Shown piece after piece: positions 1 through 48,650 of a DNA stretch of 64,000 nt. Every line of letters begins with the position of its first letter. Position 1 is the first letter of the stretch. The position numbers were made by a program, and so were the translations under genes. Source of the DNA: Tubiluchus corallicola (taxonomy: Eukaryota; Priapulida; Priapulimorpha; Priapulimorphida; Tubiluchidae); the NCBI GenBank assembly GCA_030141605.1, contig JAQGDQ010000582.1, positions 1 to 64,000 of the forward strand. Direction: 5' to 3'. The notes under the pieces were generated by a model, which saw only the letters and a program-made list of their open reading frames with translations, was not told where the DNA came from and did no database searches.

Positions 1-955
1 ATTCTGTTGCATGAACGCAGTGATTTGGCAATTTACTGCGCCGGATTTCAGAGTTGAAAGTGTTCCCGAGTTAAGTCATTCGATCGCATTTTTTCGGAAA
101 TTTTCTTAATGGATAATTAATGCCATTTATGGTATATATTAAACTTCTCAATGTCATAGAAATTTGGCAATGATCTGACTCGTTGACTTTTCATGACACT
201 TCAAATATACTATCTATCAAATCACTACTACGTAATCAATGACGCTAAGAGCCTAACATTATAAAAAACGTAAACCTGCCAATAGAAATCCTCCCAATGT
301 ACCAATTCAGAGTTCTAAAGCACGATTTATAGTTCAAGAAAGTTTCTGACATAACAATCAATTATGGATACAAGTTAAATTTTGTTAAACTTCAACAAAG
401 GCTCAGCGAATCCACTAAGACTAGCAATGGCGTCTTTTTGTCACATTCGCGTCGCCGATGAATAGGCGCGGTACCGTGATAAGCATGATCATGAACTGCA
501 GTGTTCGTGTGTGACATCACATCAGCGTTTTATAACAATATTCGCTTATGCAATCGTGCTTGACGCCATTGCACAAGTTGTGGTTAATTTGTGACGTAAG
601 CGATAGCTGTGTTCGGTTGCCGTTAATTAACTTTCCAAGGTAATTATTCAAATAATGGAAACAATTGCTAATTTTTGTAGGCAAGAAGATGTATATTTTG
701 GACAGTAAATTAAAATGAGATAAAGTTTAATCAATGGTCCGCACAAAGTTTGTTTAACTAGAATTGGTCACTATAATGCTGGTGGGTCATGGATGTCAGT
801 CGTATCGAGTTTGAATCAAGAGGTCTATTGCTCGCAAGGCAAAATTTTGTGACCCACCTCCAGTTTTGCTACAAATCTTATAGTTATTAAAAATAACAAT
901 CATTTCATCCATTAAGACCTTGTACCATTAAGACCCTAAGACATCATCCATTAAG
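1..955 (-). repeat. Left arm of a large inverted repeat, cut by the window edge
   Basis: This stretch is the reverse complement, with scattered mismatches and small indels, of about 1558-2563. Position 1 pairs with about 2563, and the innermost match is near 955/1558. The outer part (1 to about 410) carries a LINE endonuclease/ORF2 fragment on the minus strand. The inner part (about 410-955) is non-coding and carries short repeats of a TTAAGACC motif at its inner end. The arm probably continues to the left of the window. Arm identity is high by eye but was not computed. Confidence 0.9.
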
Positions 956-1172
956 ACCCTATTCTTGCCTACTTTTTGCGGCACAGTGGTCTGAGAGAAA
1001 GGCTAGAGATTTTGAGGCTGTCTGAGTGGTGAGTGCAGCACAAAAACGTCGCACAATCGACGCACAAAACGACGCAAAAGAAAGAATATTTTGCAAGAAT
1101 GATAGGGCTTTTTTTAAATTCTGCAGAGTTAAGGGGATATTGGGAAATATTGCCATAATATTTGGACAATTA

Positions 1173-1536
1173 CTACGCCTTTTCGCAGCTCCAGCGGTTT
1201 ATATTGATCGTAAAAAAGTAAAAGGTTAAGTGCACCAGGCAAGCATTTGTTTATACTTGGAAACACCTCGCAGCTCATGCTAGTGTAATTAACAGTTTTA
1301 ACAGCTAGAACGTTACCTAGTTCATTTTTTCTTGTTCCCAAGCAAGATTCTGCTAGTAAATCACTCTACGCACAGGCTAATGCATAATTAAGAAAAGTCC
1401 ATATAAAACAACTGAAGTTACTGAACAGATGCGGCAGACGGCTTTGCTTTACCCAGATGTCACATGACGGTTGTAGTTAAGACGCGTTGCTGCGGTACAC
1501 TTGACCTTTGACCTACAACAACTGTGAAAAGGCTTA
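1173..1536 (+). mobile_element. MITE family A, copy 1, in the spacer of the inverted repeat
   Basis: The left end (ACGCCTTTTCGCAG) and right end (CTGTGAAAAGGCTTA) form diverged terminal inverted repeats. The body matches a second copy at 62249-62625 and a reverse copy at 12578-12855, including the shared stretch around GCAGACGGCTTTGCTTTAC. It has no coding capacity. The superfamily is not clear, and a TA target duplication is likely but not proven. Confidence 0.8.
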
Positions 1537-1557
1537 TTGTTGTAAACTGTAAAGTAA

Positions 1558-2563
1558 CGGAATGATGTCTTAGGGTCTTAATGGTACAAGGTCTTAATGG
1601 ATGAAATGATTGTTATTTTTAATAACTATAAGATTTGTAGCAAAACTGGAGGTGGGTCACAAAATTTTGCCTTGCGAGCAATAGACCTCTTGATTCAAAC
1701 TCGATACGACTGACATCCATGACCCACCAGCATTATAGTGACCAATTCTAGTTAAACAAACTTTGTGCGGACCATTGATTAAACTTTATCTCAATTTAAT
1801 TTGTTTCATTTTCCAAAATATGCATTTTCTTGCCTATGAAAATTAGGAATTTGAATAATTACCTCGGAAAGTTAATTAAGAAATACCGAACAGAGCTACG
1901 TCACAAATTAACCACAGTTTGTGCAACGGCAGGCATATTCCCTGCACGTCAAGCACGTTTGCGCAAGCGAACATTGTTATAAGACGCTGATGTGACGTCA
2001 CGAAAATGAGTTCTAAGTCACCCTGACCTCACAGACGAACACTGCAGTTCGTGATCGTGCTTATCACGGTACCGCGCCTATTTGCCGGCCAAGCGAATAT
2101 GTCAAAAAATCCTGTCTTAGTGGACTCACTGAGCCACGCGCAGCTTTGAAAGTTAAACGAAATTTAACTATCCGAGGTAATTATTATTATGGTCAGAAAC
2201 TTCTTGAACTATGTAAATCGTGCTGTCTTAGAACTCTGAATTGGCATACATTGGGAGATTCTATTGGCAGGTTTACGTTTTATAATGTTAGGGGCTCTAG
2301 CGTCATTGATTACGCTGTTTTTAGTAGTGATTTGATAGATAAAGTAGTGGCATTTGAAGTGTCATGAAAAGTCAACGAGTCAGATCATTGCCAAATTTCT
2401 ATGATATTGAGAAGTTTAATATATGCCAAAAAAAGACATTACTTATCAATTACGAAAATTTCCAGAAAAAATGCGATGGAATGACTTAACTCGGAAACTC
2501 TTTAAAAATGCTCTGAAATCCGGCGTAATAAATTGCCAAATCACTGTGTTCATGCAACAGAAT
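1558..2563 (+). repeat. Right arm of the large inverted repeat
   Basis: This is the partner of 1-955. The inner roughly 570 bases are non-coding. From about 2130 the arm becomes LINE sequence, with reading frames resembling the end of an AP-endonuclease domain (GDSIGRFTFYN, then SSVIDY). The junction between non-LINE and LINE sequence lies at the same place in both arms. That favours an inverted duplication over two separate LINE insertions. Confidence 0.9.
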
Positions 2564-5410
2564 TATAATATAAACGAGAACGAGATTGAAGCGGCTGTAA
2601 ATAACATTAATTCCATTTTGCTTACAGCTGCATCTAAAATAGTTAAAAGAAATGGTCTAAATAAAAATAAACGCTACGCCCAGCAAAAACGCCAGCCAAG
2701 CAAGAATTGGTCTAACAGCCAATGTAAAGCAGCCCCCAACCGACTAAAATACGTACATTTTAAATTGCAAAGCGTCCCATATAATTATAACTTACGAGAG
2801 CTGTGCTTTAAAGAACAGCGGTATTATAAAAAGATCAAGCAGAAAGCACACAGGGAATATCAAGCCCGTGTTATGAAACAACTAACTGAACTGGAAACTG
2901 AAAATCCGAAGGCTTTTTGGAGCCTAATCAAACACCTGAAATATAATCAGAAAGCAGAAAAAACCTTGAACAAGGGTAATGACATTGAACCAATAGTTTG
3001 GGAAGAACATTTTCGAACTTTACTGAATGGTAACGATAGCCATTGGAGAAAAACTAGAAAACTGTCCGAGCATGTTGAAGAAAATTACACTTCTTTTTCT
3101 CGGGTAGATTATAGAATAGCTGATACGTAAATCCTGACAGCTATTAAACAGTTAAAAAATAACAAAACTGCTGGTACAGAAGGTTTAATAAACGAAATGC
3201 TCAAAGCTTCAAGCCAAGTTATGGTTCCTTGTCTTCGTAAATTATTCAATTTGATTTCTTCTGGTTCCTGCTATCCTATCCAGTGGAAGGAAAGCTACAT
3301 CATCACAATATACAAAAGAGGAAATGCAACAGACCCAAACAATTATAGAGGAATCGCCATTTCAAGCAGCTTAAGCAAATTATTTGCGAAAATTTTGAAA
3401 AATAGGTTGCAAAAATTTCTGAGTGATAATAACATTCTCCATAAAAGTCAAAAAGGGTTTAAAAGAGGCTGTCGCACCAATGACCATATGTTTACATTAA
3501 AAACACCAATCGAGAATTTTTTGAAACGAAATCATAAACTTTATTGTTGTTTCGTTGATTTGCGCAAAGACTTTGATTCAGTTTGGAGAATTGGATTGTA
3601 CTATAAATTGCTAAAAAATAATATAGGTGGTTACTTCCTTAAGATTTTGCAAAATATGCACTCTAAAACTAATCACTCCGTCAAACTCGCTGGCGGATTA
3701 GCAGAAGATATACCATCCTCCTTGGATGTTAAGCAAGGGTGTACGTTGAACCCAGATCCCGTCAGTCTAGGCAATTTTGAAACCATCTTCTGAAATTTCT
3801 AAAAGCAATTCTGAAATTGTCTTCTCTATGCAGAGGATAGGGTCTTACTTTCTTGTTCCCAGTCAGGATTGCAACAATGCCTTAATAAGCTGAATAATTA
3901 TTGTAGCGAATGGGCTCTGGAAGTTAACACTAAAAAGACAGAAATTATTGTTTTTAACAAAGCAGGCAGAATTCTATATTAAACTTTACCCATGGGTCTG
4001 ATAAGCTGAAAATAGTCCAATCTTATAAATACTTAGGGGTCGAATTCTTTGCGTCTGGGCTTACAGGCAAAGCTGTACCAAACTAAAAGACAAAGGCCTA
4101 AAGCTTTTTACTGCACGAAAAAGTACATATCTAACTGCGCAGGCCCACATACTATTATGAAATTATGTGAACATACTGTAGAACCTATAATGCTATATGA
4201 CTCTTGTGTATGGCGACTTGGCATTGTTAAAATTAAAAACAATTCCCCGCATGTTCAAACTAAATTTGACAGTATGCCAAGCGAAGAGGCCAATGTTAAA
4301 TTATGCAGATTTCTTTTGAATGTCAATAACAAACCAAGCAAATATGCGACTAGGGCAGAACGTGGCCGTTTCTCCATTTTTATTAAAATAATTAAGGATA
4401 CAATCCGCTACTGGATACATGTTATTAGCCAACCTTATGATAGTTATAAGGTTATGTCATAAGGTATACAACCTTATGTATACCAAGCTTATAACGAAAA
4501 TCGAAACTTAGCTGAAAACTGTTTTGTTGGACTACTTTTGTTAAGTATAGATTATGTGTATATGGCTTTGACCATGTTTGCAATAACCAGACAACGTTTT
4601 CACCTAAGCGACTACTTAATAAATTAGAAGAAAAAATAAAAACTGATTATACCCTATTTTGCAAAGAAGAAATCCATAATGATAACAAACCTGAGGGACA
4701 AAATAACCTGCAAACGTATCAAACCTTCAAAAAACAATTTCAACTAGAAAACTATTTACTTTCTGGTTATTCCAAATACGTTATAACAAAATTTATAAAA
4801 ACTGAGAATCAGCTCTCATACTTTGTGTATTGAAAGGAGGAGGTACGTCAAACCTAAAAAAATCCCAACTGAGAATCGTATATGCTCATACTGTTTAAGA
4901 AATGATATCAAAGACGAATTACACTTTGTTATAAAATGCCCGTATTACAATGATCTTAGAGAAAAATTATATAATCGCATCAATGTAATTAAACCCGAAT
5001 TTTTCCTTATGGGGAATGTTGATAAATTTTTATTCCTGATGGGAAGTAATGATTTAGAAGTATTTGAGGCATTTATTGATTACGTTGAAAAAGCGTTTTT
5101 AAGACATGATGAACAACATACTATGTTATGATCATAGCATTGAAAATGAGGCCTAATGAATGACAATTTATTTTAATTACTGATCATTAAACTTTCCATT
5201 AAAAACTAATATAACTAACAGGAAGATTTAATAATATCTGTTTTATTAGTAATTGTTTTGTTTGTATATAGTGTCGTTATATTTCATAATTGAAATAGTA
5301 TGTATGTCTTCTTTTTCTCTTGTATATTTCAAAATTGAAATTGTGTGCATGTCTTATTTTGTTTTTTGTATTGTATATATTTTTGACACTAATAAATAAA
5401 TAAAATTTTA
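2130..5410 (+). mobile_element. Degenerate LINE (endonuclease end, reverse transcriptase, C-terminal zinc-binding tail)
   Basis: Several frames broken by stops and frameshifts together read as LINE ORF2. The end of the endonuclease is at about 2146-2400 and a linker at 2423-3130. Reverse transcriptase at about 3131-3793 shows NNYRGIAISS, FVDLRKDFDSVW and VKQGC motifs. The YADD-type region follows near 3830 in a shifted frame. A C-terminal C-x2-C...DELHF...CPYY tail lies at about 4823-5131. An A-rich AATAAATAAATAAA tail near 5390-5403 probably marks the 3' end. The 5' part of the endonuclease is missing. It is a non-LTR element of the AP-endonuclease type; the exact clade is uncertain. Confidence 0.9.
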
Positions 5411-5987
5411 ATCGAAGCTTTGATTTAAAAAAAACTGTTGCAGTTTTCAATATTTTAGAGCATAGCTTATTTTGAACTGTGCACACAATCCGTGGATACA
5501 GAATGGCGAATACAGAATTGATTTCACAGTACTGTTTCTATGCGGAAGTCTCCGCAGGACTGAGTTTTTGTCAGCTATAGATGTCTTTGCCCAGCTTCCA
5601 ACCTGTTTGCGAAATGACAACTTCAAACTTGTACTAGTTTTACTTGTAGTTGCTTACACGCATGCGCAGTATCATACGCCTGGTTTACGAAAACGAAAAA
5701 ATTCCAGTTACCCCATACGTACAACTGTACCTAATCGGTTTTAAATCCGTTTATTATTTACATAAATTATTGGTGCCTTTGCCTAGCCAAGGTTTTTACA
5801 GCACTATGAACACTTTGCGATCTTGCTCTGTAGATTGACAAAAATCAGTAAAGATAAAGCGAAAATGTTTTACATCGTAAATGATACATAATTACGACAA
5901 AATACAAGCGCGATGTCAAAGTATTCTTGGAAACAATACATAATTATTGCTCATATTCATGTGCCTGTACAAGAAACTTACAAGAAC
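5411..5987. other. Intergenic, nothing recognised
   Basis: AT-rich sequence after the LINE tail. Short open frames occur, but none has protein-like composition together with splice signals. Confidence 0.5.
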
Positions 5988-6563
5988 AAGGAAAACAGGA
6001 TGTTTTTTCATATACCACCCTGTTTTAAAATGTGGTAAAGAGTATATATTTTAACGTCACTAATAACGCAAAAGCGTTTCTGATAATTAAATAATAGATT
6101 AAAAGCTTAATTAACAGTAGCACAACTATTGATGACATCACAAATGAACATAATTTTCAGCAACACAAGCAATAAATAAGCATGTTGCAAGTGTTTAGAA
6201 AGCGAAAATTAAAGAAATTGAGTGTTATGATAAAACTCTGCAAGTTTCAAGATAAAAATTCAAATTTACCACTGTGTTCATGCATGAACTCTCGAACGTG
6301 GGCATTACATCACAAATGAACAGTTCTGAACCGAGAGGTACAGCAACTAGTTTTTGTGTAAGATGCAGGCACTAGTGCCCATCTAAGTAACAAAAGGTGA
6401 AATGCATGTAACAGCAAAGAACTAACTGCGCGAATGCGAACTTGCGTTTGTGAGATAGTAATTCTTTCACATAAGTCATTCTTGAAAAAATAGGTTCTGT
6501 TTCAATATTTTAAGGAGTAAATTGTTTTAATTTGCAGTTCAAGATTGGGTCCGGTTTTGCTTC
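5988..6563 (+). mobile_element. MITE family B, copy 1
   Basis: The start AGGAAAACAGGATG and the end GGGTCCGGTTTTGCTT match the termini of the family-B copies at 41 kb and 49 kb. Internal blocks such as TTCTGATAATTAAATAATAGAT and the 'antisense' block around GCATGAACTCTCGAACGTG are shared with them. No coding capacity. Confidence 0.85.
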
Positions 6564-7135
6564 AACATAGATGGAATAAATTTACAGATATTACAATGAA
6601 GACGTTGTGAAAAGCAGTAGAAAAGTTTCACTAAGAGTCACAGAAACTCAATGTGAATGTGATAAAGTCAATAAGGCATAAATGCATTTACAATCATTGC
6701 CACTTGCTGACATATTTTGCAAAACACGACTATAAATTAAGTAATTTTCGTGGAAAGATATTTCTTGTAGGAAAAGGTGTGAACAACAGAATTTTGTATG
6801 AAAGCTGGATGAAGGCTGCATAGCTGCCATTATGTTTACTTCTCTATGCAAAAATATTCCAAAACGGCAGCAAAAGAAACACATTGCACCTACAATTTGT
6901 GTGGCAACAGTAGGTCTAGCAAATGTACTGGCATGTTACAGTTATTCTGGCTTCTATTACATCATTATATCATATTATTTCATAGGTGGTGCCACAGCTA
7001 GTGGTAAACATACCAATATGTTATTCAAAGAACGACATACCAATCACTGGTAAAGGTACCATAAACTAGCTAACTAGCATTCTTTAAACTAAATAAAAAA
7101 CCAGAAATTCTTGTCCACAATGACACTTGTACTAT

Positions 7136-8208: not shown

Positions 8209-8659
8209 ACAAATTATATGGCAGTACAATAATTTGTTATTATATTAGTGTCAGTTGGGATAATCAAAGGTAACCTAACGTAGTACAATTACATAATAAT
8301 ATATAAAATATACACAAAAAGTTAAAAAAGGCAAAAATGGAAAACCACATAAAAATGACTAATTGCATGTGTAATGTGTGTATAGCAAATGAGTTTGCTT
8401 CCTCATTCTTAATCTAAAAACAACACAAAAGTATTTCATTGAAGAATGCTCAATAAAGCAGAAAGGCTAAGAAAGCCTCACTTCTGTCACAAGTTCTCAC
8501 AACTTTAGAGATAATTTCCAACAAAAGACAATGAATTGAACTAAACAAAAAAGAGCACATTAGGGCAACACAGTTTAACAGCTATCTACTGATGGAAGAA
8601 AACTTTCTCCATGTTCCGGGATTCCTTGCTGGCCTCATCATCCTCGAAGATGCCGTATG

Positions 8660-11600
8660 TCAATCAACTGCGCTCTGGTAATACATGAGCCGTAGCTGCC
8701 GAGACTCGCGTCTGAGGGATTCGGCATAGAGCAATATGCTAACAGTAACAAGAAATGACACGATGATGCAGACGATGGCTAGCCATGACCACATCTTGTT
8801 GGGATAGTCCAACGGTAGCGGGCAATTGTACAACAATTCCTGATAGTCCGTGCTGTTCACCGTGTCCCAAACCTGCAACATTTAAAAAAGTACTTACTGG
8901 TTAATACATACTGATTTATTATTTATTACTATATTATTATTATTAATAATATTACTGTTACTATTATATACAGTACTTTTTGGTAGCAGCATAGGCCCTA
9001 TAGCAGTTTAATTTATTAACAGTAGGAAAAGGATACAGTGTTTACAATGTGCAATGAAAACACAAAAAATGACTAAATGAAATAAAAATCAAGTTAGTTA
9101 GTTGAGCTAAACTTTGTGACTATTAATAATTACAAAACTACAGACTAGTGTTCGTTCATACAGTCATGGACAATGAACAGAATGTTATGTTCTGTTGTAG
9201 AGTATCTGAAATCTTGATACAGCATGTCACATTTCTATATGTAGCTAGCAGTAACAATAAAACATTAGGAACTTTTGAGCAGACAGCAGGATTTTTATTA
9301 ATTTTGAATAGGTTGAGCTGTTCATGTTGCTCCCGCGTACTTCGGTCCATCGGTGGCACTTGTCTAAGTGTTTTTTTGGATTGGGGAAACTAATAAGTCG
9401 GACTTCTTTTAACCTTTCTGGGTACCATGGATTTCCCGTGTATTATTATGCATTTCAGGTGCAAATACCCCTGAGGTTGGGAATAAGTTCCAAGTAGCCA
9501 ACAATAGAAACGCAGTCAGAGCCAAAATACTGCGTCTGATTGGCCATTGCGAGGTGGATCCCCGCACATACACACATCCCCGCACAAAGGCACTGTAACA
9601 CACACCAAACCATTTTTAACGCATTGGATATATAATTTTAATTTTCTGTTTAAAATCAAAACACAAAGAAGATGCAATTTTCAAGGAAATACGTAATTGT
9701 TATTTTGTATTTAACATCAAAACACAATAAAAAGTTTTTCTCGATGACACTCTTTACCAGAAAAAAAATGTAAAATAGGTTGATTGTTCTTCTAAATAGT
9801 CTTAATTGTTTTTCTAAATAGTCTTACCAACAGACATGATGGAACGCCCTCATAACAAGAAGCGAAGACATCGAAAATTGCCTTTGCAATATATAATCAT
9901 CAGTAGGCCTATTGCTTGGCAATGGTGTCTAGACAATCGTATGACAAGAATATATTATAATAATTAGATGTGGAGCAATTTAATCCTTACTTCAATCAGT
10001 GAACCTTGACAAATGAGTTGCGTAAATGCACACTCATTTCAAAAACACGGGAGGCAGGTTGGTCAGATACAGTAATGATTCCATTGTTGAAAATGCACAA
10101 ATTTTGAAAAATGTCCTCGGGGAACTGTTGCTCCCTTTGTGCCCCTAAAAGCTATGCCACTGGCGTTACTGGTTTTGTTGGAACTCATTAGCATCGTAAA
10201 GATTTACTATACAACCAAAAACGAATACTATTACTCACTGTAGACAAGATCACGTTAAATATCTGATGCAAGTCCTCAGATGAGAGATGACCCGTATTCA
10301 TACTAATGCTTTGATTAAAAACTCTTGCATATTCATTGCTCTCGATGCCACCAGATATTCCATCGTGCCATGTTTTATATGCCTCTGAAACAAAACACAA
10401 TTATTATTGCAAACATTAACTCCTTCAGAACCACGCCGCCCAAAATAGCTCTTAACCTATGACTTTTCTGCTACTGTATGAGCACAGAAATAACTAAATG
10501 ATTAAAAATTAGGAACTGGGAAAATCTCGACTATCCGATCATGCTATTTGTTTAAATATTTATAAGTGATTTAACTGGATAAAATTAAAAAAACACGCCT
10601 TCTTCAGGCACTCCAACTTAGCCTATTGAGTAGTTTAGTCTGGCACGCACTTGCTTGATTGTACACACTACTTTATTGATCACCTGCTTGCTACAGCCCA
10701 AAAGAACTGTCTGCTCCACATAGTTCCAGGAAAAGTTAACCATTAGCCAAGGACAAATTAAGGTCGTTTAATTTTTTAAGAGGAATCTCTGATAAAAAAT
10801 AGAGTAGACTTAAAATAGTGTATCGCAGCACTGTGTCTGCATAGTTGAAATTTTCTGCTTTAACAGATTTCACACAAGTGATACTATACATTGTCGCAGT
10901 GTAAACACTTCAGTTATTGAAAGCTTTCTTCCATTTTTTTTGTCAAAAATAGATTTTTAATACGTCTAATCATCTGTAACGTAAGCAAACATTATGTAAG
11001 GAATAGAAACTAGTTGTTTAGTGAGAGCAGTTTTTCGTGAACCTACACAAAATGCAGCAAACTCTTATGGTCCTGAAGGAGTTAATGAACTAAGGCTTCA
11101 CTGATAAGTATACTAAAGTCCAAAAAGCAGTAAAAAACGATTCCTGTCAAAAGCTAACATTATTGAACTATAATAAATCAATCTTTTTACCTAAATTTTA
11201 ACTATTCTAATCTATATATGCTCGTAATTTAGATGGTTTAATAAGTAACAAAATTTCTCAAAGGAATTTGTATTTTTCTTTTTTGGTAATGAACTAACTC
11301 ACTAACTTTCATAAGTTACTTTCAAGCACTACACACACATTCAAATTAAAAAAAAGGCCAAATCCTCTGGAGAGTTTGACTTATTTTAATGCTCGCGAAA
11401 AATGTTACAAGGATTTATTAATAGTACCGCAATAAGCACCTCATGTGATTAGTAAAATCACTTTAAAAGTCGCGATCACTTCACCCATGGGCGCTCCGAT
11501 TTTGAACACATTGATGTATAAGTAAACCGAGCGAAGACAGCCGCTACTGCAGTACAAGAAAATTATTTGGAGAAGCTTATACGTAATTCACGTCGTACTT

Positions 11601-12577: not shown

Positions 12578-12855
12578 TAAGCCTTTTTGCAGTTTCATTG
12601 CGTGCATGCGCAGTTGCTGCAGGTTAAAGATTAAGTGTACCACAGCAATGCGTCTTAACTACAACCGTCATGTGAAGTGTGTGTGTGTGTGTGTAAAGCA
12701 AAGCCGTCTGCTGAATCAGTTTAGTAACTTCAGTTGTTTTATGTGGACTTTACTTAATCATGCATTAGTCTGGGTGTAGAGTGATTTACTAGCAGGATTT
12801 TGCTTGGAAACAAGAAAAAATGAACTAGGCAACATTCTAGATAGCTGTTAAAAGA
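12578..12855 (-). mobile_element. MITE family A, copy 2 (reverse, one end lost)
   Basis: It starts TAAGCCTTTTTGCAG and then runs as the reverse complement of copies 1 and 3. A (GT)n expansion lies at about 12680-12694. The far terminus fades out in a TG-rich stretch near 12855. Confidence 0.75.
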
Positions 12856-13059
12856 ATGTGTGTGGGAGTGTGAATGCATGCACGTATATGTGTGCATGTG
12901 TACAAATAAAGCTAATATTCAATATTAGTGTTTAATTACAGACGACTATTTGCTTATCTATAAGATTCAGTTTTAGTAACACATCACAAGAAGTTATTGT
13001 CAAATGTGCAAAGCGCAATACGGCCCAGTTAAAAAGCAACTACGTAGTGAAAGGGTTAA

Positions 13060-13640
13060 TTAATTGCTACATCTGATTAACCTGCCTAAAGCTTATTCTT
13101 GTTTATTTTGCTTTACTTATCGTTTTGTTATTGATTTTTTGCATTATTTGCTTTGCATGGTTTAATTATTTTGCAGCTTCATTAAGCTGGCCAAAAACTG
13201 TTTTGTGACAGGAAAATTAGATTGCAAGCATATAACTGACATATTTTGCTTTAATTGTTGTTTTGATATTGCTTTTTTTTCAATATTTGCTATGCATGGC
13301 TTATTTTACAGATTGATTAACTGATCAAAAATATTTTGCGATAAATTTGTAATCAAGCATGTAATTAAATTTAATGCCGGTCCTGTTTATTTCATTTCGC
13401 TTTTGTTTCAAATTATGTTGCTTTTTTTATTTGCATTGCATGGTTTAGTTCTTGCTGATTAATGAATTATTGTTCATAATTTAATATTTCATTGCATAAA
13501 TTGTTATCATAATCATTATTACACTGGAGGCAGTTCTATTTTGTTTTGTTTAAAAGCTCTTTATGTTTTGTTACTGTAGATAATTAGCTTTGCATGATTT
13601 ATTTGCTTGAGTAAGTCCATTATTATATTTTGCTTTTACG
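13060..13640. repeat. Four very diverged T-rich tandem repeats, period about 140-150 bases
   Basis: Each unit contains a T-rich block with TTTTGCTTT followed by a GCATGGTTTA/GCATGGCTTA-like block. The TTTTGCTTT-type blocks begin near 13107, 13244, 13390 and 13540. Divergence is high, so the array is old. No coding potential is seen. Confidence 0.5.
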
Positions 13641-17800: not shown

Positions 17801-20800
17801 ATACTTACTGTGAAATTGTGTTATAAGCTTTTTTTGAGCTATGTTAGTGGTCTGGTCGAGTGTCGTTATTCTAGCTCAGTGTCTTGGATTCGAGTCTACT
17901 GCCTTCTTTTGCAATACATTCTGGTAGATAAACTTTTCTGAATGCTTTTACATTACAGGTTGTTCTGCCGATCACTACTACAACGCACTTTGTCTACCAG
18001 ATGCTCAAAATTCACTAGCTGTGAGCCTTTTCAAATGGCACATCTATCTAGTCTGGCACACAGAAGATGTCTTTTAAGTCCCCAAACTTCGCTTACTCGG
18101 ATTTTGACCTTGAGCTTTGCTCAACAAAGTGAGTTACAAACACTTGGGTACCGTATAACATTACTTCTAAGTCATTTTATGTATATGATCTTTTATATAC
18201 TCTGCAAGCCATGATACAGCGGCCAACTTAAGGTAGATATAGTCGTGGCTGGATTGGAAACTAGCTCTGGGATGGAGCCTTGGAATGTTATCAAAGAGCC
18301 TAAGCCGTGCTCAGATCATGCATGCCTGCTGTTAGAAGGAAGATTCGTTGGGGTAAGTATGGCAGATATTAACCTGTCCAGAAACAATTTTCTGGTGGCC
18401 GTCATCCATATACCAAGGAGGCTTAGTATTGCCAAATTTAATTGTGTAATGTGACATGCAGCATCTCTTCAATTGCAACAATACATCAGGTTTCATTAAA
18501 TGACATGAGTTGCAAAATTTTATATATTATATATACTGAATATTGCAAAAAGCTAATTTTATTTCCAAAATCTATTATTCATTTTTTTAGCTTACAACTT
18601 ATATATTGCTAATGATGACGGTTTTTTTATTTACCAGCATGTCAAAACAACTTTTTCCTGAATGAATTGTACCTTCAATTTACACTGTGCTGGTATAATT
18701 TCAAGCATTTCAACCGTTTGTTCGATCGACCTTCTAACTGAGAACTTCGAAATTAATCATAGCTGATTTATATGTTGTCATTGATAAAGAAATTGCTGAT
18801 TTGAATATTTTATCATTTTAGGTCAGTCGATGTTTATTCAAACTCAGGAAACTCCCAATCCCAACAGCATAAAGTTTTATCCCGGCTGTGAAGTGCTTGA
18901 ACAGGGAACTATTGATTTTCCGAACGCTACAGCTGCCCACAGTTCATTTTTAGCAAGGTAAACACATTCAGTTGTTATCCTAAAATGTCTGCATAGCTGA
19001 CGTACATGCATATGCTAAAGCACAAGCATATTTTATATGGATATTTTAACTCGCTACTAAAGTTATGAACTTCAGTGGCATAGTACTTGTGAAACGGTTT
19101 CTAGCCTAGTTCCTCTTGCAAATCAGTCTTACAGACTTGAGAAAGTGAGACGGTGTGGAGCTTTTCTAACCTCATTTGTGTCACTATGACTATGTGAACA
19201 TGCCCTAAATGTTTTAGTTTCACACCGATTTTCACCAATGTGAACAGATGCAAAAGTTGTGGAACAAGTAAGAACAGCATTCCCTTATGGAGTTATTGAT
19301 GCTTAAATATGTCATGCAGAAGTTGTAGAAGCCTTTAAAAATGGAGATTGTTCGAGCCCATAGTCTTTGTCTCCTAGCTGATAAATGTGTAACTGATAGA
19401 CAGAGAATACTGCCTAGTAAGAATATTTAATAGCTGTTGAACACTAGATTGCAATGACCGCAGGATACTGAGATTTCAATGCAAAATCGTATCCACTAGT
19501 GGGCGGATGGTGTCATTGCAAGAGTTAGATGTGCATTGGTGGTGCGCGGAGTTCTATCTCCTATCCCAATGCATGTCTGTATTCAGATCAATCTATGTAG
19601 TCTATACGTCTTCAACATTGTTAAGCAATCTTCATATTTTCCGAACTCTGTTAACTTCTGGTTGCAGCAGACCAAGAATTTTGTAGCAAAACTTCTACTA
19701 AGCACTCCATGTGCTTGTTATTTTTCCAAACATTGAATTTCCAATTAATACAGGCTGGACTCAAAAAAACTAAACTTTTTTTTAAAACAGGGTCATAGAG
19801 CCAAGAATTGGTGCCCAGTTTAACATTTAAGTTAGAAACATTTTAGCACTTGCCTGCTAATTTTTGCTAAGAAAGTCTTAAAAGCAAATATTTTATGCTT
19901 CAAACATTTGTCATGAAGCCAATAAAAATAAAAAAACAAATTATCTGCATTATTGTGTGTCTGCATTGCATTGATTTTCGTATGATTATATTGACAATAA
20001 AGCTATCGTTGGCTGAAAAAAGTAATTGAAATGTCAAAAACATATCGAACAGTTTTTTTAAAGTAAGTAAAAACAAATCTCTAAGAATAAATTATAGTTT
20101 TTTTGTTTCTTTAGAAAATTTGAATTTTTTTATTTAAACTAAATTAAAATCCCCAAATTTTGCATTTTTTATTTAAAACTTAGTATCATTCATAATACAT
20201 GCTGATATAATGCATCTGTTTTTAAGGTAAAAACTTTTACTCCAATACAAAGAGAAATAAATATTTATGAAATGAATTTTGTAAAAGGGCTGTCTTTTTG
20301 CCCACATGATATAATTGCCAGGGATGTTAGTAAAAGCATTAGCTGTATAACAGTTCTAACATTACTCTAGGATATGTCATAGTTTTAACTATGTATTGTG
20401 CATTTCTTGTATGTATTTTTTCATTTCTACTTGTAATTTTAGGCAGCTGTTTAAAATAGATGGCGTCAAGTCGGTGTTTTTTGGCCAGGACTTCATTACC
20501 GTCACAAGGGTATGTATGTAAGGGCTACACTCAACTTTTCTTATATTTTTACTTTACATGATCCAGTCTTTCCCTCGGGTTTCTTATCTGTGGAATTCTC
20601 TCACAGAAAATTGCTTCCCTTTTATTACAACTTCAACAAAGAAAAACAGCAACAGGTGTAGTTTCTCATTAGTAAATTTGATATAAGCTTTCTGTTTTCC
20701 TGCATTTGCTTAATCATATTTTTCACTGCAGCCTTGAGCGAACACTGTTCTCTCTGAATGTATTTGAATAAAAAAATGCAGCTGGTTTGGTGAACCATTG

Positions 20801-23800
20801 CTCTGTTACTATGTTAAACTACAGCTTGATTCTATATCCCTTGTCTAAATGTAATTGTGCATTACTGATTTTTTTGCTTGTAAATATTTGCGACTTTGCT
20901 TGGATGTTAGTTGTTCCAGGACTGTTACAGGAAATTCTACAAGGACATTGTGGCAGTTACAAATATTTTTTATCACTTCCACTCGTTTACTTCCATGCAT
21001 TTTTTTTTGATGAAATAGGGTTCTTCACATATTGCCCCGGAGTAATCATGTCTGTGGTGTGAACCTGAAGATTTGTCTGTTTAAATCAGTTTGAGAATCA
21101 AATGTACTGTCAATGGCAATATACACCATTTTTTATACAGGGTGTTCGGAAAGTCACTGTACACTTTTCTAATCATGTTTTTTTTATATTTCAGTTTTTG
21201 ATCCTTACAATATAAGAAGGATGCAAGCCTGTACTGATGCTAACAGTGTCACTTTCAACATTGTTTATAATTGTCATTCATATTTACCTCCTGTATTCTA
21301 TTTTCAAACATGTCTGTTAATAAACGTATAAGTGCACAGTGACTTTCTGAACACCCTGTATTTTAGACAAGGTCATTTAATGTTTCATTTTCTCGTTTGT
21401 TTAAAGCTTGACGATGATTTTGACTGGAAAGTTATGAAGCCAGAAATATTTGCGACAATAATGGATTTCTTCGCATCCGGTCTGCCAGTTCTGACCGAGT
21501 CGAATCCTTCGGCAGAAACTTACGTTGACCCCGACGACAGTGAAACCGTGCAGATGATTAAAGAGCTGTTGGACACTCGGATTCGTCCGACCGTTCAAGA
21601 AGACGGAGGGGACATTGTTTATGTGGTATTTTTTTTTAGAAGTTTTAAGCATGAATTTAGTTAACAGATTGATTCTTGAACCTGTTTTGCATTTGGCACT
21701 GGGGAAATTGCTTATAGACAGCCATCAAAGCACAATAAGCCAATTCAAAAAAGGTTATTTCAAAAATTTTTGGAAAAATTTTTACAAACATCGATTTAGA
21801 CAGCGATTTAAAGTTAATTTGTTTAAAAAATAGAAGGAAATACAAGTTGCTTTTAATATATAATTGCTTTTGTATGAAAGCAAATATAATTGCTTTTGTA
21901 TAACAAGTTAATTAAGTTGCGGCCATTTGACTTTGCCATCCGACCGCATAATTTGCATAATAAACTAATAGCCACTCCAAAACCTTACCAGCCATTGAAA
22001 TACAAGCTGCTATATTTGGCACTGAAGACAATACCTGGAGAATATAAGTCTATTTCTTTACAATTAGTATGCATTTATTTGTGGTGTGTTATTATGTGCA
22101 AAGTTGCTAGCATTCTGTGGTTTTTTTAATTTGGAATGATTTCACAGTTTGATCAGACTAGCAGTTATTATTATTTTTGCAGCATGAGACAGTAACCTGG
22201 CTGTTAGATACATGTAGTACAGCAATTTCTGTACTTTTCACTTACTAATAATCAGTATGCTGTCAGACTTTGTCTTTCAATCAGTGCCAAATTCATTGCA
22301 AATTCAGTGCCTGAATAAACCAGCAAGTGTGCCCTATAATTATGTGCTCAGCTACTGACTGGGGATGCTTGCCGTCACTTCAATAGCTCACTGGACCATC
22401 ATTATAATTAGCTACATCCAGCACAGGGCAGACTCACCTGCAGGTAGCTGTTACATTCCTGTACAAGTTTCATAACACCTTAGCGCATTTGAACAGAGCT
22501 CTGTCAAATTTACAACTTAGAGTGATTTGAATACTTTCTGCAAATTCTTGTGTAGAAAAGAATGCCCTTTTGTGTTGAACAGTTTCAGATAGAAGCTATC
22601 ATTTGGAAACTAAAAGGCCAAAATTTTGTGAAAATTTTACAGACTTTTTGTATTATCCTGTTAATTGCTTAACTAAATAAAAAGGTCAAAGCACTTTATG
22701 TACAGTGTTGGAAAGAAAATTTAATTCTCTTTCAGAAAATATGTAGTTTTGCACTAGTATCCCATGCAGTAAAACCATTATGGGCATTTTTGTAGGGAGA
22801 TGTCAAAACTAGACAAATATTCATCATCGTGAAAGAGTCAATTAATTAATTATACAAAACCGTTTATTTTAACTCATATTTCCTTCTATTTTTTAAAGAA
22901 ATTAACTTTAAATCACTGTCTATTTCAATAAATCCATCTGTAGGTGCCGCCATACTTAGTGCACATACACACACAACGTCTTGCGTGTAGGGGCATCGTA
23001 GGGGTCTGACTTGCATTCAGTTTGTCACACGATTAATTCACTAGAATGTAAATACTAGTAAAACCTCTGAAAAATGCTACCGAAAATTATCCGAAATTTC
23101 GGCTACGAAACTTAATAAATTTTGCCGAAAGTGCAAAAAACTGAAAATTTCGTTTCGGTAACATCCCTAATTGTAAGAAACCTTTTTATTTTGTGCTTCT
23201 GCAGTTAAAAGTCGTTTTTTATAAAGATGTCTTTTTCTCTACAGGGTTTTGAGCCAGAATCAGGCATAGTAAAACTAAAGATGCAAGGTTCGTGTACAAG
23301 CTGTCCCAGTTCTACCGTGACGCTGAAGAACGGAGTTCAGAACATGCTGCAGTTCTATATTCCAGAAGTGACAGGTGTAGAACAGGTACTAACTAATACC
23401 TAAGCACATTAGATTAACCCTACGACTCCATGTGCACATAATGCGTGATCTGTGATCAGCAATGTATGACGCATGTTGGCTGTTTCCATGTGTCCATAAG
23501 CGCTATACATATTAACAAAACCCACGGCGCTGTTTCCTCCATTTTTTGTCGCTATTCATGAAAATTGCAAGCAGTAATTTTTGCAAACCATGTCTCTGTC
23601 AAAATTTAACCGTGATAATTACAGCTGCACCATTAGCTTATTATTGTACTATTAGGCTAAAAAATTCAAAAGAAAGCACATGTTTTGGGTGCACAACATT
23701 TTGCAGAGGAGAGAACAATACGGCATGTATCATCATCTAGTGAAAAAACTGTAGTTAGGTGCACAACACATAACTACATGCTTCTTCCACCTCTCAAAAA

Positions 23801-24169
23801 CTGAAATAGAAAAGGGTGTTATTGTTTATATCTCCCTAACTCTTTTCATGTATTTGTTAAAGTCAGAGATTCTGAATATTGAGCACTCGTTTAATCTTGG
23901 TGATCATTGTCCATAGAAATGAAAATTTTTAGTGGATTTTATTTTTATTAACTAGTACATTTGTTTATTTCCCATTGTATTTTTACCAAAACCGTTGTCA
24001 GAAACATGTATGGAGCTATCAATGCCCTTGTTAACAGCCTACACAATATTGTATCGTTTAACTGCAGGTTGAAGATGAATTAGAGTCATTGACACAGACT
24101 GAATTTGACAAGCTAGAAAAGAAGCTGCATGAGGATGACATACTGGCACCAGAACCATCAAGGAAGTGA
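14836..24169 (+). CDS. NFU1: NFU1, mitochondrial iron-sulfur cluster scaffold (7 exons, complete)
   Basis: Exons: 14836-14882, 17959-18128, 18822-18957, 20443-20509, 21407-21625, 23245-23385, 24068-24169. Lengths sum to 882 bases (293 residues plus stop) and all junction phases agree. The start ATGG has G at -3. Residues 1-75 are Arg/Ser/Leu-rich with almost no acidic residues, as expected for a mitochondrial presequence. The Nfu N-terminal domain runs from about 76 ([13 protein letters not shown]) to 160. The NifU-type domain spans about 190-258 with the cluster-binding pair C230-T-S-C233. A charged C-terminal tail of about 35 residues is longer than the human one. NFU1 receives or assembles a 4Fe-4S cluster and passes it to targets such as lipoyl synthase in the matrix. 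The last codon of exon 5 (Val) relies on a GTATTT donor. Introns carry a LINE, a tandem duplication and a MITE. Confidence 0.95.
14900..17035 (+). mobile_element. Decayed CR1-like LINE in NFU1 intron 1
   Basis: Broken frames read in order. An endonuclease end lies at about 14950-15260 with [15 protein letters not shown] and MSDHAI. A linker follows at 15629-15900 ([16 protein letters not shown]). Reverse transcriptase fragments are NYRPL near 16007, QHGF near 16113, [10 protein letters not shown] near 16210 and FADDTKLA near 16456. The tail at 16755-17020 has [15 protein letters not shown] and [13 protein letters not shown]. Frameshifts and stops are many, so the copy is dead. The motif set fits the CR1/jockey group. 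Confidence 0.9.
17394..17830 (+). repeat. Tandem duplication, two copies of about 218 bases
   Basis: The unit starting GGATCACTGACTGTAAACTA at 17394 recurs at 17612 with a few per cent mismatch and small indels. Both copies sit in NFU1 intron 1, ending about 130 bases before exon 2. Confidence 0.9.
17838..17920 (+). other. tRNA-like promoter boxes (possible SINE remnant)
   Basis: TGGTCTGGTCGAG, followed about 30 bases later by GGATTCGAGTC, resembles diverged A and B boxes of a tRNA. The sequence does not fold into an evident complete tRNA, and no second copy was seen in the window. It lies immediately before NFU1 exon 2. Confidence 0.2.
19750..20300 (+). repeat. Old dispersed repeat, family H, copy 1 (NFU1 intron 3)
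   Basis: The 3' part, around CCAATACAAAGAGAAATAAA and GCTGTCTTTTTGCCC, matches 30820-30895 (CCATTGCAAAGAGAAATAAA, GCTTTTTGTCCC). Weaker upstream similarity can be followed by eye. Highly AT-rich, no coding potential. Confidence 0.5.
21138..21358. mobile_element. Tc1/mariner-type MITE in NFU1 intron 4
   Basis: CAGGGTGTTCGGAAAGTCAC at the left and GTGACTTTCTGAACACCCTG at the right form a terminal inverted repeat of about 27 bases. TA dinucleotides lie at 21136-21137 and 21359-21360. The 221-base size, TA duplication and TIR type fit a non-autonomous Tc1/mariner element. It ends 48 bases before exon 5. Confidence 0.9.
22793..23170. mobile_element. Probable hAT-like MITE remnant in NFU1 intron 5
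   Basis: The right end, reading in reverse TAGGGATGTTACCGAAACG, is of a widespread hAT TIR type. The proposed left end TAGGGAGATGTCAAAAC is only loosely similar. No 8-base target duplication could be matched, so the left boundary is unsure. Confidence 0.35.
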
Positions 24170-25323: not shown

Positions 25324-25960
25324 TTAAAGGAAGACATGATGATGAAGACATGAATACCCCATTTTCAAATACGGTAAAAAGCACACATTTTAACACCAAT
25401 AATACTACAAAAGTGTTTGTGATAATTAAATAATAGATTAAAATCTTAATTAATGGCAGGCAAGCCCAACTATGGATGACATCACAAACTAACATAATTT
25501 TCAACAGCAAAAATATTCCACGAGCGTGTTGCACGTGTTTGTGAAAACAAAAATTGAAGTACAGTGCTACTGTAAGATATTCAGTGTGTTGTACTAGAAC
25601 TAGGCAAGTTTTAAGATGAAAATTTAAATTTCATATTTAACGCTGCACTCACGCATGAGCTATCGAATGCGTGTAGTTCGTCACAAGCTAACACATCTAA
25701 ACTGGAAGGTATGGCACCTGTTTTTTGTGTAACGCATTTCTGAAATGCAGGCGCTAGTTAGTGCTAACAAAGTGCTATCTAACTAACAAATGGCGAAATG
25801 CATGTAACAGTGTCGAACTAGTGGTGTGAACGTGAAATTGTGTCTATGTGGTAATAATTCCTTCACGTAAGTCATTTTTGAAAAAATAGTATGTTCCCTT
25901 TCGATATTTTAAAGAGTAGATCGTTTTGACCTACAGTTTAAGATTGGGTCCGGTTTTCTG
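25324..25960 (+). mobile_element. MITE family B, copy 2
   Basis: It starts TTAAAGGAAGACATGATG and ends GGGTCCGGTTTTC. The body aligns throughout with the other family B copies, including the ATTCCACGAGCGTGTTGCACG block. Confidence 0.85.
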
Positions 25961-31026: not shown

Positions 31027-31653
31027 TTAAAAGAAGACAGGATGACTTTTTTCATATACTATTCCACTTTCAAGTACGTACGGTAAAAAGCATACATTTT
31101 AACACCAATAATACTGCAAAAGCGTTTCTGATTATTAAATAATCGGATAACATCTTAATTAACGGCGGGCGAGCCCAACTAGTGATGACATCACAAACTA
31201 ACATAATTTTCAACACTGAAACTATTCCACGAGCGTGTTGCGCGTGTTTGCAAAACCGAAAATACAGGTACAGCATTTACTGTAAGAGGTTCAGTGCGTT
31301 GTACTAAAACTCGGCAAGTTTTGAGATAAAAATTCAAATTTCAAATTTACTACTGTGCTCACGCATGAGCTGGTGTTTGAGCTGTCGAACGTGAATACTA
31401 CGTCACAAACTAATACATCTGAAATGAGAGGGACAGCACCTGTATTTTTTGTGCAACGCGTTTCCAAAATGCAGGTGTTAGTGCTCGTCTAACTAGGAAA
31501 TGGCGAAATGCATGTAACAGCGAAGAACTAGCCGCATGCTGCATATTCTTTCACATAAGTGATTCTTGAAAATATAGTATGTTTCCTTTCCATATTTTAA
31601 AGAGTAGATTGTTTTGACCTACAGTTTAAGATTGTGTTCAGTTTTGCTTTAAT
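31027..31653 (+). mobile_element. MITE family B, copy 4
   Basis: TTAAAAGAAGACAGGATG at the start and CAGTTTTGCTTTAA at the end. The body aligns with copies at 25 kb and 41 kb, including GATGACATCACAAACTAACA. Confidence 0.85.
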
Positions 31654-38832: not shown

Positions 38833-39495
38833 TTATTTGCAAGCCACAAAGCAAGTTGTCGAATTGTCGACAATCACTTCTTCTTTCAGCTTCTTTTCAC
38901 CACAGACTGACCCAGCTGGTTCACAGGAATGAGCGAAACTGTAATGTCCGGTTTGAGTACCGCAAGGTTTGCATTGTAGTCGACGCCAATCGCCCCATTT
39001 TCCGATAGCAGGAGGACCCGCAGAGGCATCCGTGACGTGTGGTTCAACCAAGACAACGGGTTCGCTATCTCCACACACTTTGTTGATACATGTAGTTGGC
39101 TTGGACTCTTGTAATCCTTTCCCCTGACAGGCGACAAGGTTCCTAGGACAGAGGTACTCAGTGCAGTTTTGTTCGTCACTGCCATCATCACAATGTAGCT
39201 TCCCATCACATCTGAATCTCTCCCAGTAGCACTGTCGTTTATTTGTGCAAGTGTAAAAATTATCTCTACACCAGGAAGACGTGCAGTTCTTGATCAGGAT
39301 GTAGCCGATCTGGTTACATTGTTGGTAATCGCTGCAAGAGAAGACGTCTGTCATGCACTGGACTTTCACACCAGGGTACTGGTCTAAGCACTCGTAGCAA
39401 TTCGATGAGCCAGCTGAAGTCTCTTGGCAGTGTTTCTGTCCTAGCCATGAGGAGATAAGCGCTGCAAAGACGATAAAGTTTCCAAGTTTTTCCAT
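38833..39495 (-). CDS. Secreted protein with one LDLa domain and a TSP1-like C-terminal region
   Basis: A single uninterrupted frame of 220 residues starts at ATGG with G at -3. Two codons for Asn and Asp precede this ATG in frame after a TTG, but no earlier ATG is used. Residues 1-19 form a signal peptide (FIVFAALISSWLG core). A cysteine-rich region follows (C33, C36, C47, C54, C60, C71). The LDL-receptor class A domain covers about 76-111, with Cys at 76, 83, 89, 96, 102, 111 and the calcium motif CDDGSDEQNC. Residues 167-200 (WGDWRRLQCKPCG) look like a short thrombospondin type 1 repeat. There is no membrane segment, so it is probably secreted. The function is not known. The coding frame has no intron, unlike the neighbouring genes. 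It could also be one exon of a larger gene, but it has its own signal peptide and stop. Confidence 0.8.
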   Translation of the reverse strand: MEKLGNFIVFAALISSWLGQKHCQETSAGSSNCYECLDQYPGVKVQCMTDVFSCSDYQQCNQIGYILIKNCTSSWCRDNFYTCTNKRQCYWERFRCDGKLHCDDGSDEQNCTEYLCPRNLVACQGKGLQESKPTTCINKVCGDSEPVVLVEPHVTDASAGPPAIGKWGDWRRLQCKPCGTQTGHYSFAHSCEPAGSVCGEKKLKEEVIVDNSTTCFVACK

Positions 39496-40154
39496 GTCGT
39501 TTTCCAATCAGCTAAAAGTTTGTGAAGTTGAGGCGCTATATCATTTTTACCACTGAGTAAGACGCCAGAAATTAAAGCTATAATTTTATTATTATAATCT
39601 GGATAGCCGTTCTACGCTGTCCCCAAATCAGTTCACTGCTACGTTGGAACAAATTATAAATCAGAAAAACTTAGAACGGAAGGACAGTTGGTGTAAAACT
39701 ATTGTGTCTGCCATTGTTTCGGTTTTTCGAAAATTTGAGGCTTACCGGGCTTTTTCCAGCTATGTTAACTTGCCAAGTAACTTGCAAACTTGTTCATGCT
39801 AGAAAGCAAAACTTCCTGAGAGTTAATCTCCAACGCTGACACATTTTTCTCTAGCTCTTTTTGAAACTATGCATTAAATGCGACTCGAGAGTCACTCATT
39901 TAAAAATGTCGTTTTATTGTACGAAAGCGCAACTTATTCTTTTACCTTTATAAATCTAAAAGGCGGTAACCAAAAACAGCACAGCAATGATACGAAATTC
40001 TTTCGCAACAAAGCTTCTCTGTTGAGAGCAAAATAAAATTCTTTGTTCAGAATTAGAACTATAATCTCTAACATCTAGAGAAAGACATAGGAAACCAAAA
40101 AAGCAAAATATGAAATATGTAATGTTACTTAATTTACGTGAGCAAATTCGTAGT

Positions 40155-40961: not shown

Positions 40962-41582
40962 GTGCAAAACAGGACGCTTTTCATATTCTAACCCATTTTG
41001 AAGTACGGTAAAAAGCATACATTTTAACACATATAATAATGCCAAAGCATTTCTGATAATTAAATAATTGGTTAAAAACTTAATTAACGGTGGGCGGTCG
41101 AACTAGTGATGACGTCACAAACGAACACTATTTTCAACAGCACAAACATTCCATGAACGTGTTGAACGTGTTTGCGAAAGTGAAAATTGAAGTACAGTGC
41201 TACTGCACAACATTCAGTGTGATATACAAAACTCGGCAAATTTTAAGATAAAAACTCAAATTTCAAATTAACCGCTATCCTCACGCATGAGCTCTCGAAC
41301 GTGTGTATTACGTCAGAAACGAACACATCTAAACTGTGAGGTACAGCACCTGTTTTTTATGCAACGCGCTTCCGAAATGCAGGCGCTAGTGCCCGTCTAA
41401 CTAACAAATGCAGAAATGCATGCAACAGCGAAGAACTAGCCGCGGGAACACGAAATTACTTTAGTGTGGTAATAATTCTCTCACGTAGGTCATTCTTTAA
41501 AAAATAGTATGTTCCTTTTCAATATTTTAAAGACTAGATTATTCTGACCTACTGTTTAGGACTGGGTCCGGTTTTCCTTTAA
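40962..41582 (+). mobile_element. MITE family B, copy 6
   Basis: It starts AGTGCAAAACAGGACG and ends GGGTCCGGTTTTCCTTTAA. Full-length body with the GATGACGTCACAAACGAACA block. Confidence 0.9.
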
Positions 41583-41739
41583 CTTTCTGAAGCAGTCCAT
41601 ACTTACTTGGCTCAGCATTTATATGGTATCCATACAATTATTAAACAAATTATTACATATTTAGCTCATTATAATTCGTTGATAGCTATTAATTTTAACA
41701 CTTTTATATAATTATTAGATAAGAAAAGCCTATAGATAC

Positions 41740-45230: not shown

Positions 45231-46226
45231 TCAAAAACTTTTACTTTTCCAGAAGCTTTCGCCCTTCACGGACTTTGTCAGCTGTAAGGGAGATACAATA
45301 ACAAAAATCATAAAAACCATTTATAGGCGTTTATAAAGCAGGTAGGTCAGTTTTGGTTGTTTTCAAGATCTAGGCCATACAATTTCAGGGATATTTGTCA
45401 GCAGTTTCATTTTGATTTTGGTTTCTTAACTAGTAATTGTAATATTTCTTCTAATTTAGTTTTAAATACAGTTTATTAAAGGAAAACCGGACCCAATCTT
45501 AATCTGTAGGTCAAAACAATCTACTGTGAATTATTGAAAGGAAACATACTATTTTTTTCAAGAATGACTTACGTGAAAGAATTATTACCACACAAACACA
45601 ATTTCGCGTTCGACCCACTAGTTCTTCGCTGTTACATGCATTTCGCCATTAGCTAGTTAGACGGGCACTGGCACCTGCATTTCGGAAACGCATGGCACAA
45701 AAAATAGGTGTTGTCCCTCTCAGTTCAGGTGTGTTAATTTGTGAATTCACACGTTCGACAGCTCATGCATGAGCACAGCGGTAAATTTAAAATTTGAATT
45801 CTTATATTAAAACTTGTTTAGTTTTAGTACAACACACTGAATATCTTACAGTGGCATTGTACTTCAATTTTCGCTTTCGCAAACACGTGCAACACGCTTG
45901 TGGAATATTTTTGATGTTGAAAATTGTGTTAGTTTGTGATGTCAACACCAATTTGGTTCACCCGGCATTAATTAAGTTTTTAATTTGCTACGTAATTATC
46001 AGAAACGCTTTTGCAGTATTAATTATCTTAGAATGTATACTTTTTACTTGAAAATGGGGTAGTATATCCTGTCTTCCTTTAATGAATTTTGTATCTCTTA
46101 TTTTAATGTCATTGTATACTTGCACTTTACATGTAGTTTTATCTGTAATTTTTATGATTTTTATTATTGTATCTTTACCTTACAGTCCGCGAAGGACGAA
46201 CTCTCCTGGAAAAATGAATGTTTTTG
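45231..46226. mobile_element. Fold-back type element, family E, interrupted by a family B MITE
   Basis: The left arm 45231-45315 and right arm 46148-46226 are inverted copies: TTTCCAGAAGCTTTCGCCCTTCACGGAC and AGATACAATAACAAAAATCAT on one side, their complements on the other. The interior is split by the family B copy at 45476-46082. The arm core is related to the hairpin at 32655-32856. Confidence 0.75.
45476..46082 (-). mobile_element. MITE family B, copy 7, nested in family E
   Basis: TTAA|AGGAAAACCGGACCC at the left and GTCTTCCT|TTAA at the right, so TTAA is present at both edges as a likely target duplication. The full-length body is in reverse orientation. Confidence 0.9.
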
Positions 46227-48033: not shown

Positions 48034-48650
48034 TTAAAGGAAAACCGGACCCAGTCCTAAACTGTAGGTCAGAATAATCTACTCTTTAAAATATTGAAAC
48101 GGAACATACTATTTTTTAAAGAATGACTTACGTGAGAGAATTTTTACCACACTAAAGTAATTTCGTGTTCCCGCGCCTAGTTCTTCGCTGTTTCATGCAT
48201 TTCGGCATTTGTTAGTTAGACGGGCACTAGCGCCTGCATTTCGGGAACGCATTGCATAAAAAACAGGTGCTGTACCTCACAGTTCAGATGTGTTCGTTTC
48301 TTACGTAATACACACGTTCGAGAGCTCATGCGTGAGGATAGCGGTTAATTTGAAATTTGAGTTTTTATCTTAAAATTTGCCGAGTTTTGTATATCACACT
48401 GAATGTTGTGCAGTAGCACTGTACTTCACTTTTCGCTTTCGCAAACACGTTCATGGAATGTTTGTGCTGTTGAAAATTATGTTCGTTTATGACGTCATCA
48501 CTAGTTCGAACGCCTACCGTTAACTAAGTTTCTAACCTATTGTTTAATTGTCAGAAATGCCTTGGCATTATTATATGTGTTAAAATTGATACATTTTACG
48601 GTACTTCAAAATGGGGTAGGATATGGAAAATCAGCCTGTTTTGCTTTATT
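48034..48650 (-). mobile_element. MITE family B, copy 8
   Basis: It starts TTAAAGGAAAACCGGACCC and ends CAGCCTGTTTTGCTTTA. Reverse orientation and full length; very close in sequence to copy 6. Confidence 0.9.

Follow-up and report, generated by a model that had tools for sequence, protein, structure and literature searches.

How did a LINE truncated at one and the same base come to stand in both arms of a large inverted duplication at the tip of a contig? We analyzed positions 1 to 64,000 (forward strand) of contig JAQGDQ010000582.1 (C1219, 135,960 bp) from the Tubiluchus corallicola assembly GCA_030141605.1 (343.5 Mb in 2344 contigs), a 64,000-nucleotide stretch referred to below as the window. 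Because the window and the contig begin at the same base, the left arm is incomplete, stopping where the contig does. An earlier note, made from the sequence alone, had described two arms that switch from non-LINE to LINE sequence at the same point, in mirror orientation, around a spacer of about 600 bases containing a MITE, and alignment bore out this description. Inverted copies at 1-947 and 1562-2563 matched at 81.4% identity over 1040 columns with gaps counted (BLAST; E-value of 2.5e-292 in a whole-genome search), with 822 of 917 ungapped sites identical, and their inner 241 bp (707-947 on the minus strand and 1562-1802 on the plus strand) were 100% complementary. The arms are thus inverted around a single-copy spacer of 614 bp (948-1561, plus strand), which holds a high-copy MITE-like repeat at 1174-1545 with imperfect terminal inverted repeats GCCTTTTCRCAG, placed from its genome matches with ends judged by eye (41 of the 45 matches listed fall within window positions 1156-1545). 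The switch to LINE sequence lies at a homologous point in each arm, near 2188 on the right and around 360-370 on the left, the left arm comprising a LINE part that the contig end cuts short (1-365, minus strand) and a MITE part (366-761, minus strand).

It was not rare for dispersed repeats of 150 bp or more to stand as inverted pairs less than 3 kb apart: the window has two further such pairs, and of the 21 other loci scanned 3 had them, so that an inverted pair alone is unremarkable. A dispersed repeat of about 600 bp has at least seven copies in the window (5988-6565, 25355-25958, 31030-31652, 40964-41583, 45476-46067, 48034-48648 and 49109-49688), and 48034-48648 and 49109-49670 form an inverted pair. 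An open frame on the minus strand at 38833-39507 encodes an LDL-receptor class A domain (PF00057) and is possibly a host gene exon. Another minus-strand frame, at 56858-57697, has C-terminal cysteine-rich motifs resembling, by eye, the zinc knuckle of a retroelement gag, and gave no Pfam match at an E-value of 0.1. Rfam at the gathering threshold and ARAGORN returned nothing in the window.

The non-LINE sequence in each arm belongs to a dispersed repeat that we take, from general knowledge, to be a MITE of a TTAA-type transposon, just as we take the inserted element to be a LINE. Among the 17 copies from the loci compared, 12 started with TTAAAGG, 8 kept a CCTTTAA 3' end and 6 had both; the fuller ends read TTAAAGGAAAACCGGACGATTG and CAATCATCCGGTTTTCCTTTAA, and contig C1646 carries a near-intact copy. 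The family is thus one of dispersed copies with TTAA ends and terminal inverted repeats. For the same reason we dropped a reading of the non-LINE part as a SINE; the segment at 5406-5492 turned out to be the remainder of the MITE. In the right arm, the MITE starts with TTAA at 1748 (the final 55 bp of the inner 241 bp being its 5' end), runs to 2188 on the plus strand, is broken by the LINE at 2189-5405 (plus strand) and continues at 5406-5492 (plus strand), where its terminal inverted repeat is degraded.

By sequence comparison, the LINE is truncated at its 5' end, begins within the endonuclease domain, has an interrupted reverse transcriptase and ends in AATAAATAAATAAAA. It carries a reverse transcriptase domain (PF00078, E-value 7.8e-12) and is split between two open frames, 2423-3130 and 3197-3793. 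Its relative on contig C2107 (locus L011) extends upstream of the junction with endonuclease-like sequence, where PF03372 matched with an E-value of 0.00043, and PF14529 matched directly past the junction with an E-value of 0.021; both matches are weak and below the curated cut-offs, and the junction-spanning piece of this relative had no endonuclease-family Pfam match. By these comparisons, the LINE inserted into a pre-existing MITE and was not, as the earlier note had proposed for one of its readings, a piece captured by the arms.

We then considered whether the junction could be where LINEs of one family normally begin, the non-coding part being their leader, an outcome that the earlier note had itself envisaged. 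A search with window positions 1980-2580 as query gave 2182 candidates, of which 40 were scored. Only three of the 40 crossed the junction, namely the right arm, the left arm and contig C2095, all representing the same locus. The 29 MITE-only matches all stopped at 2186-2189 and the eight LINE-only matches started at 2177-2186, six of these eight being identical copies over 3354 bp. Sharing of the junction by both arms and C2095 is what a leader would predict; the separate ends of the MITE-only and LINE-only matches, the endonuclease-like sequence upstream in the L011 LINE and the resumption of the MITE after the LINE all speak against it. The junction was not the 5' end of independent LINE copies, and since the truncation falls within the LINE's endonuclease region, we regard a leader as exceedingly improbable.

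Three LINE bases (in AACT, ATTGG and CATGA) are common to the left arm, the right arm and C2095 and differ in L011 and L020; at AACT and ATTGG, L049 differs as well. Because these bases are unlike those of other copies, one insertion best explains the three junctions in the alignments. The claim that two independent truncations are not involved therefore holds: LINE and MITE form one nested insertion, with at least three shared LINE bases absent from the other copies compared. Six other contigs of 0.8-1.8 Mb (C2107, C2074, C2072, C1974, C1831 and C1752; loci L004-L008 and L011-L013) have one LINE copy in common, identical over 3354 bp in 6 of 6; L011, L012 and L013 are identical over 9.57-9.86 kb, with ends beyond the stretches compared. 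This copy may reflect a very recent large duplication, a mobile unit or redundancy.

Contig C2095 has the arm only once. Against C2095:122001-132000, window positions 1-1573 matched in reversed orientation (88.8% with gaps) and 1590-7066 matched forwards (93.2% with gaps). The order on C2095 is flank X, spacer, 241 bp, MITE with LINE, flank Y, and flank X joins the spacer directly in continuous sequence, giving arm and spacer once beside a flank as in an unrearranged counterpart. The spacer of the window agrees with that of C2095 at 559 of 588 ungapped sites and is inverted relative to its orientation beside the single arm. The two contigs also correspond further inwards, in a comparison that was read over 1590-7066 plus two short samples: 4293 of 4441 ungapped sites were identical over 2562-7061 (96.7%, with 94-98% per 250 bases), C2095:138001-138500 corresponded to 12710-13196 at 94.8%, and 19802-20601 was matched without gaps, at 99.25%, by the final 800 bases of C2095. 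Window positions 23000-24000 had no second near-identical copy among the 40 matches scored of 550 candidates (the best other match being partial, at 85%), and the overlap therefore seems limited to the contig ends. From these stretches, the ends of C2095 and C1219 appear to share an overlap of about 19 kb. C1219 departs from C2095 in its first 1561 bases, at the tip; within this tip, 430-1561 is 95.9% identical to C2095 (1045 of 1090 ungapped sites).

This single-armed counterpart bears on two readings in which the structure is itself a mobile element. The earlier note had suggested the arms of a giant fold-back transposon that captured a LINE piece, and long inverted arms do flank a spacer here. 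Fold-back (FB) transposons should appear as several copies with shared arm termini and target-site duplications. We found the full structure only in C1219 among the scored matches, with no second arm-spacer-arm copy; its sole relative, C2095, is single-armed in a continuous flank with flank X directly joined to the spacer, the last 396 bases of X had no other match among 40 scored of 3285 candidates, and neither element ends nor a target-site duplication can be defined. We therefore give this reading practically no weight. In the second reading, a composite DNA transposon, a LINE-bearing MITE would have moved twice and landed head to head, in line with a dispersed MITE that has TTAA and inverted terminal repeats, with the LINE in both copies and with arms diverged by about 10%. 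It is nonetheless very improbable, as the mirror runs 186 bp past the MITE end into identical non-MITE sequence, no other MITE with the LINE was present among the 40 scored of 2182 candidates, and the closest match of the left MITE is the C2095 MITE (382 of 403 ungapped sites), which belongs to the same locus.

The breakpoint can be read by comparing the two contigs. C2095 reads GTAACGGAATGA/ACTCC at the spacer side (reverse strand) and TTAATGG/ATGATGTC at the inner arm end, the slash marking the breakpoint, and the window has GTAACGGAATGATGTC, where the two are joined at ATGA. This microhomology of 4 nt lies at 1562-1565 and is weak evidence taken alone. Fold-back geometry by itself cannot tell an in vivo duplication from a library chimera.

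Outside their inner part, the arms are mosaics. Taking as informative the MITE sites at which C2095 and C1646 differ, the right arm was C2095-like before 1803 (8 of 10 sites, the other 2 being C1646-like) and nearer to the ectopic copy C1646 at 1803-2188 (42 of 48 sites, with 5 C2095-like and 1 private). The right arm matches C1646 at 403 of 429 ungapped sites, so that the source may have been a copy other than C1646. In the left arm, the LINE at 193-312 resembled its right-arm counterpart (7 of 8 informative sites, 1 private) and the LINE at 17-153 resembled that of C2107 (L011-like at 15 of 16 sites, right-arm-like at 1). A tree of the MITE copies (20 rows, C1646 left out) grouped the left arm with C2095 at 100/100 and placed the right arm elsewhere, with no well-supported close partner. 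The left arm also has a noisy patch at the junction (206-425), with seven indel events private to this arm between 206 and 362 (that at 362 lying at the alignment edge) and an identity to C2095 of 0.81 at 226-300 and 0.68 at 301-375; the spacer at 1051-1125 likewise had an identity of 0.82.

The foreign patches make the arms differ despite the identical inner 241 bp. Judged from the informative sites, they may stem from ectopic gene conversion, or else from the assembly having taken in the wrong copies of the repeats. Dispersed repeats are well established to undergo ectopic conversion; our literature search on ectopic conversion and MITEs found no paper. We also considered the idea that recombination between the arms had flipped the spacer and so caused the mosaic, and abandoned it once C1646 had pointed to a likely type of source for the MITE tract of the right arm.

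Fold-backs and redundant sequence were also seen on other contigs, in loci that were chosen by similarity to the arms and so prove existence and give no rate. On C1102 (70,230 bp; L017, L018, L052 and L053), a 9.8-kb stretch has an inverted counterpart at 99.0% identity, the axis of the mirror lying no more than about 12 bp from the midpoint of the contig, and the first and last 500 bases were 100% identical in inverted orientation; from these two 9.8-kb stretches and two 500-base ends, C1102 seems to be palindromic from end to end. C1227 (L020) has a 1053-bp inverted copy at 100% near its end (2958-4010 and 8210-9262), a LINE piece included, and C1677 (L016) and C1338 (L022) share 9813 bases at 100% identity in inverted orientation. 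By these comparisons, fold-back and redundant contigs exist in the assembly. No inverted pair was found at the end of C640 (L015), and no fold-back in the last 800 bases of C2095. Runs of 2400 and 1800 N, either gaps or withheld sequence, open two of the loci compared.

Because the fold-back is known only at the tip of a contig overlapping C2095, in an assembly with a palindrome-like contig, we lean towards an artefact, whether a chimeric read, a chimeric clone or a faulty contig end. Its start at contig base 1, the palindrome-like C1102 and the inverted copy in C1227 favour this reading. Against it, the arms differ outside the 241 bp, where a plain artefactual copy would be expected to be identical, the left tip at 430-1561 is 95.9% like C2095 and not identical to it, and two other contig ends (C640 and C2095) have no fold-back. 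An artefact requires either a second local error, namely the use of a wrong copy of the repeat, or the presence of more than two haplotypes, and a real heterozygous rearrangement would likewise break the contig here. Of the fold-back duplication proposed in the earlier note, the geometry stands, with arm, unduplicated spacer, arm and microhomology. An event in vivo is not favoured, and an assembly artefact, which that note had recognized as a danger to its reading, is live and slightly favoured from the contig-tip position and from C1102.

A real heterozygous fold-back inverted duplication is possible, if less probable. Here, a break at the boundary of X and the spacer would have been resected, folded at ATGA and copied, with later ectopic conversion giving the right arm its C1646-like MITE and the left arm its L011-like LINE end. 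The inner 241 bp are identical, the foreign patches end near the MITE/LINE boundary, the 96.7% between C2095 and the window over 2562-7061 is compatible with two haplotypes, and conversion among dispersed repeats is the established process already mentioned. The geometry and microhomology also resemble those described for human fold-back duplications in the available part of PMC3907307. Weighing against it are its occurrence at a contig tip only with the flank past the left arm missing, the private indels of the left arm, the other fold-back or palindromic contigs, and a 614-bp spacer slightly under the human range given there (PMC3907307). It is rather doubtful that a real, recent fold-back acquired the C1646-like MITE and L011-like LINE patches by template switching within the same repair event; were this so, the arms would capture replication-based repair in the act of moving from one repeat to another.

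Under the favoured artefactual origin, the course of events may be pictured as follows. The locus holds an ordinary nest, a LINE 5'-truncated in the endonuclease domain within a TTAA-flanked MITE, single on C2095, whose end C1219 overlaps. DNA synthesis through arm and spacer would have switched to the opposite strand, primed at the ATGA match, and the arm would thereby have been copied again in mirror around the unduplicated spacer, producing the first 1561 bases of C1219. The nest, the single-armed counterpart, the breakpoint, the mosaics and, over the stretches compared, the overlap are seen in the sequence itself; which way the event ran, and that it arose in vitro or during assembly, we infer. 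As read from the alignments, the shared LINE truncation is a single event seen twice, through the nest plus the fold-back. The locus is thus a caution that a striking mirror at a contig end can be explained by one nested insertion and a fold-back, and palindromic and redundant contigs in this assembly would imitate inverted duplications. If the fold-back is real, its identical inner arms and repeat patches would illustrate, on a small scale, how fold-back repair primed by microhomology proceeds in a genome rich in repeats.

Among known systems, the nest corresponds to a 5'-truncated LINE within a TTAA MITE, having an endonuclease/reverse transcriptase LINE that is truncated, has an AATAAAT-type end and lies inside an inverted-repeat MITE; LINE-in-MITE nesting is a common kind, and we found no difference from the present case. 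Human fold-back inverted duplications, as far as described in the available part of PMC3907307, share with our locus the inverted arms, unduplicated spacer, short inverted microhomology and unrearranged counterpart; they have spacers of 766-70,466 bp and microhomology of 2-8 bp in 13 junctions, whereas the present arm is at least 947 bp, lies at a contig tip only, has a 614-bp spacer and is paired in mosaic arms. Strand-displacement amplification yields inverted chimeras of like form with priming matches of 2-21 nt (PMC1855051), and nanopore ligation libraries contain inverted-repeat chimeras at 0.18-7.33% (PMC13141652). In the portions of these two sources available to us, such chimeras resemble the present structure in having an inverted copy, an unduplicated stretch between the copies and a match of a few nucleotides, and the fold-back described here, like them, is placed at a contig end (PMC1855051, PMC13141652); compared with these chimeras, the present arms are not identical throughout.
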